From the NCBI RefSeq assembly GCF_029278565.1, contig NZ_CP119559.1, positions 2,046,001 through 2,110,000 of the forward strand: a stretch of 64,000 nucleotides of DNA, in the 5' to 3' direction. The stretch comes from Haloarcula halophila. GTDB lineage: Archaea; Halobacteriota; Halobacteria; Halobacteriales; Haloarculaceae. A program made the translations under genes and the position numbers. How positions within the stretch are numbered: position 1 is the first letter of the stretch; each line of letters starts with the position of its first letter. The notes under the pieces were generated by a model, which was not told where the DNA came from, did not search any database, and was given only the letters and a program-made list of their open reading frames with translations. Shown here piece by piece: positions 35,024-41,889 of the stretch.

Positions 35024-36025
35024 ATGGACTTGACGCTTTCCGGCGGCCTCGTCCGGGCCGGCGAGCGCGCACGCGAGCGGTTCTACGACTCCAGTGGCTA
35101 CGGCCACGTCGAGAACGGCGGTGCCCTCACGCTGGCACCGGTCGAGGCTGCCCACCTGCTGTACCGGGGTGACATCGACAGCGTCGACGGGATGGACGTC
35201 CGGGCGCTGCTGTCCTCGGCGGTCGTCTCGGAGGTCGCCTTCTTCGTCTACAAGGACCTGCGTGACCGCGGGTTCTATCTCACGCCCGCACGCGAGGGGT
35301 GGGTCGACGACCCCGAGGGGATCGACTTCGTCGTCTACCCCCGTGGGAAGGGGCCATGGGACGACACCGTCGAGTACCGCGTCCGCGTCGTCGGCGAGCG
35401 CGACACTGTTCCGGCCCGGGAGGTCGGGGACTGCGTGCTGGCGGTCGTCGACGAGGAGAGCGAGATCACGTATCTGGCGACCGACCGACCCGCAGTCGAG
35501 GGGACCAGCGACCCGTCGGTCCCGGCCGCCGAGGGCGATCTGCTCGCCGAGCGGGTGCTGTGCTGGGACCCACCCACGGAACTGTACGAACGGGCCTTCT
35601 ACGGCCAGCGGCTCGACGACGAGGGGGCGGTCCAGCTCTCGCTTCTCGAAGCCACCTACCTCGCTCGCGATGGGTCCCTGACCGTCGACGGTGGGGCCGA
35701 GGCAGTCCTCGAACGTGGCCGCGAGGTCGAGGGCGAGCGGTTCGACCGGCGGCTGACGGCGTACTCGACGCTCCGGGAACGCGGTGTCGTCCCCAAGACC
35801 GGGTTCAAGTTCGGCGCGGACTTCCGGACCTACGCCGACGTCGACTCCATCGATGATCTGGGCCACTCCGAACTCCTGGTCCGGGTGCTCCCGGCGACCC
35901 ATACCTTCGATCCGCGGGACCTCGCGCTGGACGTCCGGCTGGCCCACGGTGTGCGCAAGCGGATGGTGTTCGCGCTGGTCGGCGACGGCGTCGAGTGGCT
36001 GTCGGTCGCGCGGTTGACACCGTAA
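35024..36025 (+). CDS. endA: tRNA-intron lyase (tRNA-splicing endonuclease)
   Basis: The 333-residue protein is the two-unit fused form typical of haloarchaea: two copies of the endonuclease fold in one chain. The catalytic triad is visible in the C-terminal unit as Tyr270 (FRTY), His281 (LGHSE) and Lys312 (VRKRM). It cuts introns and rRNA precursors at bulge-helix-bulge motifs. Inverted-repeat stems suited to it flank the 16S and 23S rRNAs in this window. The ATG at 35024 begins the first endonuclease domain. Confidence 0.93.
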   Translation: MDLTLSGGLVRAGERARERFYDSSGYGHVENGGALTLAPVEAAHLLYRGDIDSVDGMDVRALLSSAVVSEVAFFVYKDLRDRGFYLTPAREGWVDDPEGIDFVVYPRGKGPWDDTVEYRVRVVGERDTVPAREVGDCVLAVVDEESEITYLATDRPAVEGTSDPSVPAAEGDLLAERVLCWDPPTELYERAFYGQRLDDEGAVQLSLLEATYLARDGSLTVDGGAEAVLERGREVEGERFDRRLTAYSTLRERGVVPKTGFKFGADFRTYADVDSIDDLGHSELLVRVLPATHTFDPRDLALDVRLAHGVRKRMVFALVGDGVEWLSVARLTP

Positions 36026-36040
36026 GGGGCGGACCCGGAA

Positions 36041-36050
36041 GGCATAAGAC
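36041..36050 (+). promoter_or_regulatory. TATA-like box for the trpS leader transcript
   Basis: GGCATAAGAC contains a TATA-like core (CATAAG, 36043-36048) preceded by CCGGAA, a BRE-like element. The core centre is about 27 bases upstream of the ATG at 36073, the distance that places the transcription start at or next to that ATG. Confidence 0.5.
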
Positions 36051-36072
36051 CGTGTTCGCGCATGTCACCGAT

Positions 36073-36153
36073 ATGGTGTCCACTTCCGTCGACGGCTGGC
36101 GCTGGCGCGACCGGGAAGTGGACAGTCTCGCGGTCCCCGCACGGCGGGCCTAA
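36073..36153 (+). CDS. Putative Trp-containing leader peptide upstream of trpS
   Basis: This 26-codon ORF begins at the predicted transcription start and reads MVSTSVDGWRWRDREVDSLA followed by VPARRA, ending in TAA at 36151-36153. Two tryptophan codons lie at positions 9 and 11 (36097-36099 and 36103-36105), in the apical loop of a long hairpin. The ORF precedes the tryptophanyl-tRNA synthetase gene by 75 bases. I interpret it as a leader peptide whose translation could sense charged tRNA-Trp. Evidence is only sequence; there is no family match. Confidence 0.55.
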   Translation: MVSTSVDGWRWRDREVDSLAVPARRA

Positions 36154-36189
36154 TCCGCCGGCGAGGCCGACGATGCTCCCTCCACTTTT
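36077..36189 (+). promoter_or_regulatory. Competing hairpins of the trpS leader (attenuator candidate)
   Basis: GTCCACTTCC (36078-36087) pairs perfectly with GGAAGTGGAC (36114-36123), extended by 36077/36124, with both Trp codons in the loop. The 3' strand can instead pair with TCCACTT at 36181-36187 (AAGTGGA at 36116-36122), followed by T-rich TTTTC. A third hairpin (CGGCGG at 36142-36147 with CCGCCG at 36155-36160) spans the leader stop codon. The first two pairings exclude each other, as in ribosome-mediated attenuators. Confidence 0.5.
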
Positions 36190-36228
36190 CGCCTGGCTTC
36201 GAGCGCACACCGACACGACACACGACAC

Positions 36229-37857
36229 ATGACGCGAGATACACACACCGACGACGGATCGACGGACGACCAGCCCCGGCCGGACGACGCGACGAACGAC
36301 ACGAACCGATCCCCGTCGTCGCTTCGCCCCGACGGCGGGACGGACGCTGCGGGCGCGGACGACGTACGGCTCGACCCGTGGGGGTCCTCGACCATCGCCG
36401 ACTACCACAAACTGTTCGAGCAGTTCGGCATCGAGGAGTTCGACGAGGTGTTGCCCGCGGTCCCGAACCCCCACTACCTGATGCGCCGGGGCGTCATCTT
36501 CGGCCACCGCGACTACCGGCCGGTCGCCGACGCCATGCGCGAGGGCGAACCGTTCGCGGCCCTCTCGGGGTTCATGCCGACCGGCGACCCCCACATCGGT
36601 CACAAGATGGTCTTCGACGAGATCGTCTGGCACCAACAGCAGGGCGGGGACGCCTACGGCCTCATCGCGGATCTGGAGGCCCACGCCGCTCGCGGGCTGA
36701 CCTGGGCGGAGATCGACGAACACGCCCGCAGCTACGTCCTCTCCTTGCTCGCGCTCGGGTTCGACCCTGAGGAGGGGGAACTGTACCGACAGTCCGAGAA
36801 CCGCCAGTTACAGGACCTCGCCTTCGAACTCGGAGCCGAAGCCAACGCCTCCGAACTACAGGCCATCTACGACTTCGACGGGGAGACGAACATCTCCTAC
36901 ATGCAGTCGGTCGTCACCCAGATGGCCGACATCCTCTACCCACAACTGGAGGAACCAAAGCCGACGGTCATCCCCGTCGGCCCGGACCAGGACCCCCACA
37001 TGCGTCTGGCCCGGGACCTGGCCGCGCGGATGCGCTACTTCGGCGTCACCGAGGCCTTCGCGAGTTTCGAGACCGGGCCGACCGAGCGGGCGCTGCTCCG
37101 GCAGGCCTACGACGCACGCGGGGAGTACGCCGACGACCCCGAGCGGCCACGCTGTGTCGAGGCCGCCGACTGGCTCCGCGAGGCCGAACCCACACCCGAC
37201 GACGCCCGCGAGTCGGTCGCCGAGAAACTCGACAACGCCGGCAAGGAACCGCTCCGCCCGCGAACACGAATCTACGATCGCAACGCGACCGACGCGGCCT
37301 TCGAGGCCCTGATCGAGGCCGTCGACGGCGAGAAACGCGTCTACGACGAACACGTCGACGCCTTCGAGCTGGACGCTGCCGAGGCGGAACGACTGGCCCG
37401 CGAGGTCGAACTCGACAACGGCGGCCACGGTTTCGTCCCGCCGTCATCGATCTATCACCGGTTCATGACCGGCCTCACCGGCGGGAAGATGTCCTCCTCG
37501 ATTCCGGCCTCCCACATCTCGCTGCTGGACGACCCTGAAGACGGCTACGACAAGGTCAAGTCGGCGACGACCGGCGGCCGCTCGACCGCCGAGGAGCAAC
37601 GCGAGAAGGGCGGGAAAGCCGACGAGTGTCCGGTCTACGAACTGTACGCCTATCTGCTGGCCGGCGAGGACGACGCGTTCGCCGAGGAGGTCTACGAGGA
37701 GTGTGTCGGCGGCGAACGGCTCTGTGGCGGCTGTAAGGAGCAGGCCGCCGAACTGATGGAGTCGTTCCTCGAAGAGCACCAGGAGAAACGCGCCGAGTGG
37801 GAAGCGAAACTCGACGACCTCGACATCGAGTTCGACTCGGACCGCAAGCGAGCCTGA
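36229..37857 (+). CDS. trpS: Tryptophanyl-tRNA synthetase
   Basis: The 542-residue class I synthetase has the HIGH-type motif GFMPTGDPHIGHKM (about residues 117-130) and the KMSKS-type motif GGKMSSS, both essential for tryptophan activation. The Asp/Thr-rich N-terminal 45 residues (TRDTHTDDGSTDDQPRPDD) are a halophile-specific extension. Length and order fit archaeal TrpRS. The ATG at 36229 overlaps the TGA of an upstream open frame that begins at 36062. Regulation by the leader at 36073-36189 is proposed. It ends 2 bases before the convergent gene at 37860. Confidence 0.94.
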   Translation: MTRDTHTDDGSTDDQPRPDDATNDTNRSPSSLRPDGGTDAAGADDVRLDPWGSSTIADYHKLFEQFGIEEFDEVLPAVPNPHYLMRRGVIFGHRDYRPVADAMREGEPFAALSGFMPTGDPHIGHKMVFDEIVWHQQQGGDAYGLIADLEAHAARGLTWAEIDEHARSYVLSLLALGFDPEEGELYRQSENRQLQDLAFELGAEANASELQAIYDFDGETNISYMQSVVTQMADILYPQLEEPKPTVIPVGPDQDPHMRLARDLAARMRYFGVTEAFASFETGPTERALLRQAYDARGEYADDPERPRCVEAADWLREAEPTPDDARESVAEKLDNAGKEPLRPRTRIYDRNATDAAFEALIEAVDGEKRVYDEHVDAFELDAAEAERLAREVELDNGGHGFVPPSSIYHRFMTGLTGGKMSSSIPASHISLLDDPEDGYDKVKSATTGGRSTAEEQREKGGKADECPVYELYAYLLAGEDDAFAEEVYEECVGGERLCGGCKEQAAELMESFLEEHQEKRAEWEAKLDDLDIEFDSDRKRA

Positions 37858-37859
37858 GG

Positions 37860-38294
37860 CTACAGGCCGTCCAGCGCCGCGACGACGACTTTCGCGGTCA
37901 CTTCCGCCGCGGCTTCGCCCCCGTCGACGGCGACCTCGACGACTTCTCCGCCGGTGTCGACCAGTACCGTCGCGGCCTCGCCGCTGCCCTCGACGGCGAC
38001 TTCGGCCGCTCGTTCGCCGGTCTCGACGACGGTATCGACCTGCTCTGTGGGCAGCGCCGCTCCCTCCCGGACCGTCGCATCCGGGTTCAGATCGTCGCTC
38101 TCGGGGACCGAGAGGTCGCCAAGCGCGGCTTCGATCTGTGACGGGTCCGGCGTCGCGCCGGCGAGTCCCTGCTGGAGTTCCTCGCCGACCGTGGCGACGA
38201 CGTTTCCGGGTATCTGGGAGAGATCCAGGGCCGTGCCGACCCAGCGCTCGACTGTCGATGCGCCCCGCCGTTCCGACTCGTCGTCGGGGACCAT
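37860..38294 (-). CDS. Small acidic haloarchaeal protein
   Basis: The 144-residue protein begins MVPDDESERRGASTVERWVG. Its second half is low-complexity, repeating Val/Glu/Ala/Gly (TVVETGERAAEVAVEGSGEAATVLVDTGGEVVEVAVDGGEAAAEV). That pattern suggests amphipathic strands or helices, perhaps a gas-vesicle-like or coiled assembly, but no family is recognised. CCATATAG on the minus strand (38317-38324) lies 25-30 bases upstream of the ATG and may be the promoter. It is divergent from the Phe leader ORF at 38388. Confidence 0.62.
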   Translation of the reverse strand: MVPDDESERRGASTVERWVGTALDLSQIPGNVVATVGEELQQGLAGATPDPSQIEAALGDLSVPESDDLNPDATVREGAALPTEQVDTVVETGERAAEVAVEGSGEAATVLVDTGGEVVEVAVDGGEAAAEVTAKVVVAALDGL

Positions 38295-38387
38295 ATTCCG
38301 GGATCTGACCGGCTGTCCTATATGGTTTGGCCCGTCGACCCGACCCTCGACACAACCCTTTTGGCCGGCCGTCACGATCGGTCCCAC

Positions 38388-38468
38388 ATGGCATCCGAAT
38401 CCCACCGTGCCGACGCCGCTCGCCAGCCACCTCGCCGTCCGGGGTTCGGCTTCTTCTTCGCCGCCTGA
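38388..38468 (+). CDS. Putative Phe-rich leader peptide upstream of pheS
   Basis: This 26-codon ORF reads MASESHRADAARQPPRRPG followed by FGFFFAA and ends in TGA (38466-38468). Four TTC codons occur at positions 20, 22, 23 and 24, directly before the stop. That resembles the arrangement of the E. coli pheM leader of pheST. A CCTTTTGG box lies about 27 bases before the ATG. It is followed after 134 bases by pheS. No homologous protein family is expected for such a peptide; the support is codon content, spacing and RNA structure. Confidence 0.6.
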   Translation: MASESHRADAARQPPRRPGFGFFFAA

Positions 38469-38541
38469 CGGGTGGCGGACTCCGGGCGCGCCCAGGGGCG
38501 TTCCCGGACGAAACCGCTCGACGAGCGAGGATCGCCCTCGC
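38436..38541 (+). promoter_or_regulatory. Competing hairpins of the pheST leader (attenuator candidate)
   Basis: CGTCCGGG (38436-38443), just before the Phe codons, pairs perfectly with CCCGGACG (38503-38510). TCCGGG (38481-38486) pairs with CCCGGA (38503-38508), and the inner CGCC/GGCG extends this to about 11 base pairs with a tetraloop (38481-38508). Both 5' strands compete for the same 3' strand. Another hairpin, GCGAGG/CCTCGC (38525-38541), follows. No strong oligo-T run follows, so control could act on pheS translation rather than termination. Confidence 0.5.
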
Positions 38542-38602
38542 GTGAAGTGAGAACCGTTAACTGAGCGACCCGCGGTTATCCCCACAAGACCGAGACACCC
38601 GT

Positions 38603-40114
38603 ATGAAACGACCACAGGCACAGGTGGCCGTCCTGCAGGCCGCCGACGCACAGGAGGACCGACGTATCGACGACGTGGCGAGCGAGGCCGACCTGCAACC
38701 GCAGGCGGCCGCCCGCGCCGCGTTCGAACTGGAAGCCGACGGGCTGGTCGCCGTCTCCGAGGAGACCGTCGCCCACTACGAACTCACCGAGGAGGGCGAC
38801 CGCTACGTCCGCGAGAGCCTGCCCGAACAGGACCTCTACGCCGCCGCGATGGACGCCGGTGCCGGCGACGGTCCCGTCCAGATGGGCCAGGTCATCGGGG
38901 CCTCGGGCCTCGAAGGCGGCGCCGTCGACATCGCGCTGTCGAACTACGCCCGGAAGGGGTACGGCGAGATCGACAGCGGCGAGATCACCGCCGATCCCGA
39001 TGTCTCCCCCGGGCAGGACCCGGAGATGCTCGCGCTGGAAGCCGTCGCCGACGGTCGCGTCGACGACGCCGAGGAGGCTGCGCTCGACCAACTGGAACGC
39101 CGAGGGCTCGTCGAGGTCCACGAGGAGACGATCCGCTCGGTGGTGCTGACCGACGACGGCGTCACCGCGCTGATGGAGGGCGTCGAGGTCGCCGAGACGG
39201 TCGACCAACTCACCCCCGAACTGCTCACCAGCGGCGAGTGGGACGAGGTGGAGTTCACCGAGTACAACGTCGAGGCCGACGCCGAGGACGCTCCCCACGG
39301 CAAGGAACACATCCTCCGACAGACCGCAAACCGCGTCAAGGACACGCTGGTCGGGATGGGTTTTCAGGAGATGGAGGGTCCCCACGTCGACGCCCAGTTC
39401 TGGATCAACGACTGCCTGTTCATGCCCCAGGACCACCCCGCACGGACCCACTGGGACCAGTTCGCCCTGGAACAGCCCGACGAGATCGGCGACCTGCCCG
39501 AGGAGTTAGTCGATCGGGTCCGCTCGGCCCACAAGGAGGGCGTCGGTCCCGACGGCGAGGGGTACCACTCCCCTTGGGAGGAAGACGTCGCCCGCGGGCT
39601 GGACCTGCGTGGGCACACCACCTCCCTGTCGATGCGATACCTCTCGGGCGAGGAAGTCGGGGAACTGGAGCCGCCCGAGCGGTACTTCAGCGTCGAGAAG
39701 GTCTACCGTAACGATACGCTCGACCCGACCCACCTGCTGGAGTTCTTCCAGATCGAGGGGTGGGTCATGGCCGAGGACCTCTCGGTGCGTGACCTGATGG
39801 GGACGTTCACGGAGTTCTACGAGCAGTTCGGCATCACCGATCTGGAGTTCAAACCCCACTACAACCCCTACACCGAGCCCAGTTTCGAGCTGTTCGGGAC
39901 CCATCCCGAGACCGGCGAGATCGTCGAGGTCGGCAACTCCGGCATCTTCCGGGACGAGGTCTTAGAGCCCCTTGGCGTCGACTGTGACGTGATGGCCTGG
40001 GGCCTGTCCCTAGAGCGACTCTTGATGCTCATCTACGGCTTCGAGGATATCCGGGACGTACACGGGACGCTGTGTGATCTCGAACTGCTGCGAGAGACGG
40101 AGGTGATGCACTGA
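38603..40114 (+). CDS. pheS: Phenylalanyl-tRNA synthetase alpha subunit
   Basis: The 503-residue class II synthetase subunit has N-terminal winged-helix domains (residues 1-200, typical of archaeal and eukaryotic PheS). The catalytic domain follows: GMGFQEMEGPHVDAQFW, motif 2 EKVYRNDTLDPTHLLEFFQIEGW, and motif 3 VMAWGLSLERLLMLIYGFEDIRD. It forms an alpha2-beta2 tetramer with PheT. The stop overlaps the pheT start by one base (TGATG). The upstream leader ORF at 38388 carries the cognate Phe codons. Confidence 0.96.
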   Translation: MKRPQAQVAVLQAADAQEDRRIDDVASEADLQPQAAARAAFELEADGLVAVSEETVAHYELTEEGDRYVRESLPEQDLYAAAMDAGAGDGPVQMGQVIGASGLEGGAVDIALSNYARKGYGEIDSGEITADPDVSPGQDPEMLALEAVADGRVDDAEEAALDQLERRGLVEVHEETIRSVVLTDDGVTALMEGVEVAETVDQLTPELLTSGEWDEVEFTEYNVEADAEDAPHGKEHILRQTANRVKDTLVGMGFQEMEGPHVDAQFWINDCLFMPQDHPARTHWDQFALEQPDEIGDLPEELVDRVRSAHKEGVGPDGEGYHSPWEEDVARGLDLRGHTTSLSMRYLSGEEVGELEPPERYFSVEKVYRNDTLDPTHLLEFFQIEGWVMAEDLSVRDLMGTFTEFYEQFGITDLEFKPHYNPYTEPSFELFGTHPETGEIVEVGNSGIFRDEVLEPLGVDCDVMAWGLSLERLLMLIYGFEDIRDVHGTLCDLELLRETEVMH

Positions 40115-41889
40115 TGCCTGTCGTCGACGTCGACCCCGACGAACTGCGCCGGTTGACCGGCCACGACGAGAAAGACGACGACGAACTCCGCTCGGACCTG
40201 TTCGATCTGGGCCTGGAGTTCGAGGGGCTGACCGAGGACGACGAGTTCCAGTTGGAGTTCGCGCCAGATCGGCTCGACCGCCTCTCGGTCGAGGGGGTCG
40301 CCCGTTCGCTGCGGTACCACTACGGCGACGACCGCGGGGTGTACGTCCCCTCGACCAACAGCGCCGAGTGGACCATCGAGGTCGAGGACCAGCCGGCGGA
40401 GCGACCCTACGTCACCGGTGCCGTCGTCCGCGGGCTGGACATGGGCGAGGACGCCCTGGAGTCACTCATCCAGGTCCAGGAGAAACTCCACGCGACCATG
40501 GGCCGCAAACGGGCGAAGGGTGCGATCGGCGTCCACGATCTCACGATGCTCAAAGGCGCGCCCGCCACCGAGGGCACCGGCAAGTCGATCACCTACACAA
40601 GCGTCGATCCGGACGAAGAGACGTTCGTCCCGCTCGATGCCGACCGGGAGATGACGCCCAACGAGGTCATCGCCGACCACGAGACCGGCCAGACGTACGG
40701 CGATCTCGTGGCCGACTTCGATCGCGTGCCCGCCATCTACGACTCGATCGGCCTGTTCTCGTTCCCGCCGGTGATCAACGGCCAGCGGACGGAGGTCAGC
40801 GAGAACTCCCGGGACCTCTTCATCGAGATGACCGGGACCGACCAGTGGACCATCGACCACATGCTGAACATCGTCTGCTACGCCCTGGAGGCCCGCGGCG
40901 GGACCGTCGAACGCGTCGCGGTCGAGTACGCCGACGACGCCCCCGGCGAGTACGTCGGTCGCACGCTCGATCGACCGGACTTCTCGACGCGGACGAAGAC
41001 GGTCTCCCACGAGCGCATCGAGAGCATCCTCGGGGTCTCCCTGGACGAGCGTGAGGTGATCGACTACGCCGAACGGGCCGGACTAGACGCCGAAGAGACC
41101 CGCGGCGACGACCTGGCCTACGACGTGGAGATCCCTCCCTACCGGGTCGACGTACTCCACCCGCTGGACGTCATCGACGACATCGGCCGGGCGCTGGGAT
41201 TCAACAGCCTCGAACCGACCTATCCCGACGTCTCGACGGTCGGCGGCCGCCACGACCGCTCCCGACTGGAGGACGCCGCCCGGGACGCGCTGGTGGGACT
41301 TGGCTTCGAGGACCTGCTGAACTTCCATATGACCAACGAGGCCGAGAACTTCGAGCGGATGGGGCTGTCGGCCCCACGGGCCGACGAACGAGCGAGCGGT
41401 GACGACCGCGAGCAGTCCGACGACGACTGCCTCGGTGCCGCCGCTCCGGTCACGATCCAGGAACCCTACAGTGAGGATTACACGATCCTCCGAACCTGGG
41501 CGCTCCCATCGCTGCTGATGGTCCTAGAGAACAATACCCACCGGCGATATCCCCAGGACCTCGCGGAGATCGGTCTGGCGGCCCACGTCGACGACGACGT
41601 GAACACCGGTGCCGCCGAACGCCGGACGGTCGCCGGTGTCCTCGCGCGTACGGACGCCTCCTACGAGGACGCGAAGGCCCGCCTGCAGACACTCGCGGAG
41701 TCGTTCGACGCCGAGCTGGAGACGCCCCCGACCAGCCACCCGTCGTTCATCTCCGGTCGGGCCGCCGAAGTCGTCCTCGACGGCGAGTCGGTCGGTGTCC
41801 TCGGCGAGATCCACCCGAAGGTGCTCGTCGAACACGATCTGGAACTGCCGGTTGCGGCCTTCGAGTTCCGGCTGGACGGGCTGGAGTAA
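40114..41889 (+). CDS. pheT: Phenylalanyl-tRNA synthetase beta subunit
   Basis: The 591-residue beta subunit has the archaeal order: an N-terminal B1-like domain, a B3/B4 editing domain (around QTYGDLVADFDRVPAIYDSIGLFSFPPVINGQRTEVS), B5 and a catalytic-like fold without active-site motifs. B3/B4 hydrolyses mischarged Tyr-tRNA-Phe in this family. The ATG overlaps the pheS stop. The acidic stretch DERASGDDREQSDDD is a halophilic insertion. The last 59 bases, with the stop, are repeated 161 bases downstream. Confidence 0.96.
   Translation: MPVVDVDPDELRRLTGHDEKDDDELRSDLFDLGLEFEGLTEDDEFQLEFAPDRLDRLSVEGVARSLRYHYGDDRGVYVPSTNSAEWTIEVEDQPAERPYVTGAVVRGLDMGEDALESLIQVQEKLHATMGRKRAKGAIGVHDLTMLKGAPATEGTGKSITYTSVDPDEETFVPLDADREMTPNEVIADHETGQTYGDLVADFDRVPAIYDSIGLFSFPPVINGQRTEVSENSRDLFIEMTGTDQWTIDHMLNIVCYALEARGGTVERVAVEYADDAPGEYVGRTLDRPDFSTRTKTVSHERIESILGVSLDEREVIDYAERAGLDAEETRGDDLAYDVEIPPYRVDVLHPLDVIDDIGRALGFNSLEPTYPDVSTVGGRHDRSRLEDAARDALVGLGFEDLLNFHMTNEAENFERMGLSAPRADERASGDDREQSDDDCLGAAAPVTIQEPYSEDYTILRTWALPSLLMVLENNTHRRYPQDLAEIGLAAHVDDDVNTGAAERRTVAGVLARTDASYEDAKARLQTLAESFDAELETPPTSHPSFISGRAAEVVLDGESVGVLGEIHPKVLVEHDLELPVAAFEFRLDGLE

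Follow-up and report, generated by a model that had tools for sequence, protein, structure and literature searches.

Control of gene expression by the position of a ribosome on a leader peptide is a textbook bacterial mechanism. In the pheST (pheM) and pheA attenuators of E. coli a short Phe-rich ORF is found before the cognate gene, and RNA helices are located around the regulatory codons and the stop codon. T-box riboswitches, which belong to bacterial aminoacyl-tRNA synthetase genes, bind uncharged tRNA directly and do not need translation of a leader.

No description of ribosome-mediated attenuation at archaeal synthetase genes was found in the open-access literature searched, and older subscription reports may exist. 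The statement of an earlier sequence-only reading of this locus that no archaeal equivalent is characterised holds for that literature, but the uORF as such had appeared in a 2016 list, with no function given (PMC4983044). In the dRNA-seq map of H. volcanii a TSS lies before a 26-aa uORF upstream of pheS (HVO_2948), with a 5' UTR of 150-250 nt, and no additional TSS is listed at pheS (PMC4983044). A uORF before the trpS paralogue HVO_A0127 is listed as well (Babski et al. 2016, PMC4983044). The pheS uORF is given by size, pI and mass only, and the main text holds no sequence, Phe codons, structure, conservation or regulatory proposal for it (PMC4983044).

The haloarchaeal pheS leader described here is like E. 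coli pheST and pheA and the amino-acid operon leaders of Rfam in that a Phe-rich ORF precedes the cognate synthetase gene, and like the E. coli attenuators in that RNA helices sit around the regulatory codons and the stop codon. It is unlike the latter in that the leader stands on an mRNA read as leaderless, the helices flank the Phe codons and share no strand, and there is neither a conserved competing strand nor a U-tract terminator. No sequence homology between the haloarchaeal and the E. coli leaders was seen, so the two are most likely convergent. Like the T-boxes, the element lies in the 5' region of a synthetase gene, where it would sense the charging of tRNA. It differs from them in that translation of the leader is proposed to be needed, and no Rfam covariance model matches positions 35900-38800 of the window (the whole stretch of 64,000 nucleotides analysed) up to E 5.

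The leader ORF, its Phe codons and its promoters

In the window pheS, encoding PheRS alpha, occupies positions 38603-40114 of the forward strand, and pheT follows directly 3' of it in the ORF listing (40114-41889, forward strand). The PF01409 match of the former (E 3e-77) bears out the earlier naming of the gene, and the nearest named loci retrieved with its PheS belong to Haloarcula. The leader ORF of 26 codons (MASESHRADAARQPPRRPGFGFFFAA, 38388-38468, forward strand), known from the ORF listing and from orthologous leaders in related genomes, starts with the ATG at 38388 and stops at 38466-38468. Its peptide ends with Phe-Gly-Phe-Phe-Phe-Ala-Ala, and 134 nt separate its stop from the ATG of pheS. 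The sequence-only reading was correct in the coordinates, peptide end and distance of this ORF, and also in the TATA-like box 5' of it, a T-rich TTTT at 38359-38362, 29 nt before the ATG. The leader peptides have no match in NCBIfam or Pfam. Between trpS and the leader, a candidate open frame for an acidic protein (MVPDDESERRGASTVERWVGTALDLSQIPG..., 37860-38292) lies on the minus strand and points away from pheS.

An alignment of pheS upstream regions had been proposed as a check of the original idea. Haloarculaceae, 80 named contigs of haloarchaea and other families of the order supplied the regions. This is a non-random sample, many regions having been picked for their similarity to a pair of PheS proteins from haloarchaea. 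A strict leader was defined as an ATG-started ORF of 20-48 aa with three or more Phe among its 12 C-terminal residues and a TATA-like box 22-33 nt upstream. Of 187 distinct haloarchaeal regions, 144 have such a leader, whereas it is absent from all of 3,740 dinucleotide shuffles, 187 antisense strands and 30 trpS upstream regions. The ORF and the Phe cluster are thus conserved, but the competing pairings that had been named with them are not. Most of the Haloarcula and most of the Halobacteria examined have orthologous leaders, and 31 of the 187 regions have no intact leader. In the same phylum, 20 genomes from outside the haloarchaea gave no ATG-started Phe leader, and a single TTG-started ORF among them is chance-like. 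The Phe-codon leader is therefore real, class-wide in Halobacteria and far beyond chance.

In six genomes (L065, L066, L067, L091, L105 and L129) the frame of the Phe leader is apparently broken or its stop lost, and remnants of one or both of the helices H1 and H2 described below persist. These genomes are natural experiments on the loss of the putative sensor.

The regulatory codons are the Phe-Phe-Phe run at 38451-38459 (forward strand) and the Phe at 38445-38447. At these positions 361 of 416 codons are Phe, with TTC and TTT swapping freely, which indicates that, as judged from the alignment, the codons are selected as Phe at the codon level. TTT makes up 22% of the Phe codons in leaders and 5% in pheS genes. 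An explanation of this enrichment by slow codons specific to Phe was rejected, because other T-ending codons are likewise common in leaders.

The leader appears to have its own core promoter, P1, a TATA/BRE-like element at 38351-38364 of the forward strand (the ACAACCCTTTTGG region), as judged from the spacing of the T-rich box and from the H. volcanii TSS. In 144 of 156 leaders the distance from the start of the box to the leader ATG is 29-31 nt. This is the spacing expected for a leaderless haloarchaeal transcript, and the leader transcript is read as such. The mapped TSS and the uORF of H. volcanii support a transcript starting at the leader, as had been anticipated (PMC4983044). That uORF, which shares with the Haloarcula element the length of 26 aa, the position before pheS and the TSS, is almost certainly the same element.

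A second TATA/BRE-like box, P2 (GAACCGTTAAC, 38551-38561, forward strand), is conserved with and without the leader. A P2-like box about 34-55 nt before pheS occurs in 128 of the 156 regions with a leader, in 27 of the 31 without one and in 2% of shuffles. P2 is read here as a putative basal pheS promoter, and the leader as an extra module driven by its own promoter P1. The distribution of the box suggests that pheS can be transcribed via P2 without the leader. In genomes lacking the leader module (L069, L072, L098, L100 and L178) the P2-like box survives at near-leaderless spacing.

Two helices on either side of the Phe codons

The first helix, H1, is formed within the leader ORF. Its 5' arm (CCGAATCCC, 38395-38403, forward strand) covers codons 3-6 and pairs with the 3' arm (GGGGTTCGG, 38441-38449, forward strand) in the Gly-Phe-Gly codons, which ends 1 nt before the Phe run. 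The consensus pairing is CCGAAYCCC with GGGNTTCGG. In 137 distinct sequences 91.1% of the cells are paired, compared with 84.1% after shuffling, and two-sided changes number 75, compared with 22 in shuffles. Several of the compensatory changes alter amino acids: GTCGGACGC/GCGTCCGAC in Haloglomus, and CCGACTCCC/GGGAGTCGG, CCGGACTCC/GGAGTCCGG and CCGAACGCCC/GGGCGTTCGG in other lineages. Leu or Phe at codon 3 is linked to a change of Gly to Asp (Fisher p 1.2e-6, without correction for relatedness). In Haloglomus the N-terminus of the peptide is different, and the Phe run and the H1 pairing are retained. The leader peptide has the consensus M-[AP]-[SP]-E-[SP]...G-F-G-F-F-F-A, with a middle part that varies freely and a total length of 23-48 aa. 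The conservation of its N-terminus and of Gly-Phe-Gly can be attributed to the pairing of H1.

The second helix, H2, is a hairpin directly after the stop codon (38469-38521, forward strand), identified by covariation and by a covariance-model match. It consists of an outer stem, an internal loop in which GGA (38477-38479) lies opposite GAA (38510-38512), and an inner stem. In an alignment of 51 sequences GGA and GAAA are invariant, 88.1% of the cells are paired (61.4% in shuffles), the covariation score is 0.687 (0.221 in shuffles) and two-sided changes affect 12 of 13 pairs. These values lean towards structure, since the sequences aligned had been preselected for the GGA/GAA hairpin (found in 128 of 156 leaders). 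Independent support comes from the shuffle control of the motif search, which finds H2 in 79% of leaders and 1% of shuffles, and from the covariance-model search. The model has a single match in this genome at E 0.05 or better (E 1.4e-8), and the top match adjoins pheS in 14 of the 15 genomes that have any. Of 116 genomes sampled evenly from the order, 62 have a match at E 0.01 or better, and a few of these matches lie away from pheS; this count is a less biased lower bound on the spread. The compensatory changes argue that both H1 and H2 are conserved as RNA helices. A tie of the H2 position to the Phe run instead of the stop codon was considered and dropped, both distances being about equally tight.

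An H2-like hairpin was also observed in Halorussus-like genomes (L380-L384, position about 1020-1110), where it lies in the 5' region of a gene for a SAM-dependent methyltransferase. No Phe run accompanies it, and its 5' arm is complementary to a strand conserved upstream of it (GACTCCACCC or a near variant). The hairpin is possibly a portable RNA module.

The invariant internal loop, together with the occurrence of this hairpin at a gene without a Phe leader, would suit a different explanation, in which H2 is the binding site of a small molecule or of a protein, e.g. PheRS itself, and the leader peptide supplies only translation or timing. Such a role is unlikely, though it fares best among the alternatives considered here: it leaves the class-wide selection of Phe codons and the presence of H1 unexplained, and H2 is nearly always beside pheS.

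Ribosome position as the predicted switch

The arrangement of these elements suggests that pheST is controlled in cis by the position of the ribosome on the leader Phe codons, i.e. that the leader is a translation-dependent Phe sensor; the probability of this reading is put at about 0.72. Transcription from P1 would give an essentially leaderless mRNA, the first codons of which are the leader. Because H1 and H2 bracket the Phe codons, the ribosome position would decide which helix can form. A ribosome covers about 28-30 nt, and the gap between the helices is smaller than this footprint, as H1 reaches to 1 nt before Phe-Phe-Phe and the start of H2 follows the stop codon. By this geometry, a ribosome awaiting charged tRNA-Phe on the Phe run would cover the 3' arm of H1, with H1 open and H2 closed, and a ribosome at the stop codon would cover the 5' arm of H2 and free H1. 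The stalled state would then lead to more transcript or translation into pheST. In the fast state H1 would close the 5' end and the output would fall, perhaps via factor-dependent (aCPSF1/FttA) termination or decay. The output step may be readthrough, decay or re-initiation, and the direction, stalling giving more PheRS, is assumed from biology. Neither a terminator nor an antiterminator nor any other element for this step was found. Basal expression of pheS would be provided by P2. In its anatomy the pheS leader is like a bacterial leader-peptide sensor; control by phenylalanine is predicted.

One alternative is a classical attenuator as in E. coli pheST, where stalling of the ribosome would favour an antiterminator at the expense of an intrinsic terminator hairpin immediately 5' of pheS. 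The Phe-rich leader and the hairpin directly after its stop codon agree with it, a hairpin motif assayed in H. volcanii caused termination of 59% of transcripts (PMC7237163), and the trpS leader in the window (see below) does have a choice between 1:2 and 2:3 pairing. The strings said to compete, CGTCCGGG (38436-38443), TCCGGG (38481-38486) and CCCGGACG (38503-38510), are present as given, and TCCGGG:CCCGGA is the inner stem of H2. The pairing of the Phe region with the 3' arm of H2, however, is no better for strands of one genome than for strands swapped between genomes or shuffled. Among eight tested segment pairs only 1:2 (H1) and 3:4 (H2) pair better within than between genomes; the shared-strand alternatives 1:3, 1:4, 2:3 and 2:4 and the Phe-run pairings are no better than swapped or shuffled ones. 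No downstream competitor of the H2 arms exceeds chance (z 0.04 for the 3' arm and 0.02 for the 5' arm), so that H1 and H2 have no mutually exclusive partner beyond chance. In 156 genomes no T-run longer than 3, as a U-tract terminator would have, occurs between the leader stop and pheS. A ribosome stall at Phe would moreover let H2 form instead of melting it, which is the wrong sign for a terminator. Since neither competition for a shared strand nor a terminator was found when looked for, the leader is not classed with the E. coli-type attenuators, and this mechanism is rather improbable, slightly more so than a binding site in H2. The core of the original idea, a Phe-codon leader before pheST with RNA structure linked to the position of the ribosome, is strongly supported by its class-wide conservation; the strand competition is the part that has to be given up.

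Two further pairings were rejected. That of the N-terminal codons with the 5' arm of H2 is plausible by eye and has no signal in the within/between-genome test, and the MFE-predicted hairpin of the Phe-Ala codons with GGYGGA amounts to a pairing of the Phe region with the H2 5' arm that lacks a covariation signal. The whole 215-nt region folds no better than shuffles (z -0.09), and this global score is uninformative.

That the ORF encodes a small protein acting as such, its position before pheS being incidental and pheS being driven by P2, is very improbable: the ORF has its own promoter P1 and conserved peptide ends, and P2 is present in genomes without the leader, but the free variation of the middle and of the length, the explanation of both ends by H1 and the Phe run, the retention of these two in Haloglomus under a different N-terminus, and the lack of a TSS at pheS in H. 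volcanii (PMC4983044) all speak against it.

Leaders of trpS and valS and the meaning of the finding

Two other synthetase genes of this genome have leaders of a similar kind. The trpS gene (36229) is preceded by a Trp-codon leader (MVSTSVDGWRWRDREVDSLAVPARRA, 36073-36153) that begins about 29 nt after a TATA-like box. Its segments GTCCACTTCC (36078-36087), GGAAGTGGAC (36114-36123) and TCCACTTTTC (36181-36190), the last of which is U-rich, allow either 1:2 or 2:3 pairing, and the region folds better than shuffles (z -3.17). The trpS leader is nearer to the classical attenuator than the pheS element. It is conserved in L222, L226 and L232 and, with compensatory changes, in L233, which belongs to another genus. 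A Trp leader was found in 5 of 30 genomes examined, and an exact-motif search for the element found it in only 3 of 323.

The valS gene (contig C1, about 703.6 kb, minus strand) is preceded by a leader of GTA-rich Val codons (MARRGTIPSVLVPVVGASSPN) with the pattern MARR...VLVPVVGV.TPH and a TATA-like box 30 nt before its ATG. The N-terminal codons are complementary to a segment 3' of the stop, and the leader is conserved in part of the genus (L330-L341 and L348). In a strict leader screen of the other class I and II synthetase genes of five genomes, only valS stood out. Chance is a very unlikely explanation, since three synthetase genes, pheS, trpS and valS, have leaders rich in their own amino acid.

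Here a uORF already on record in 2016 is read in terms of its Phe codons, structure, conservation and proposed regulation. Taken together, the three leaders make it somewhat probable that archaea independently evolved ribosome-mediated, amino-acid-specific control of synthetase genes (Phe for pheS, Trp for trpS and Val for valS) on leaderless mRNAs, at least one of them, that of pheS, with a flanking-hairpin switch unlike the familiar bacterial attenuators. If this is true, archaea would couple translation to gene expression by the same logic with different RNA parts, and would do so on leaderless mRNAs and with a termination machinery different from that of bacteria.
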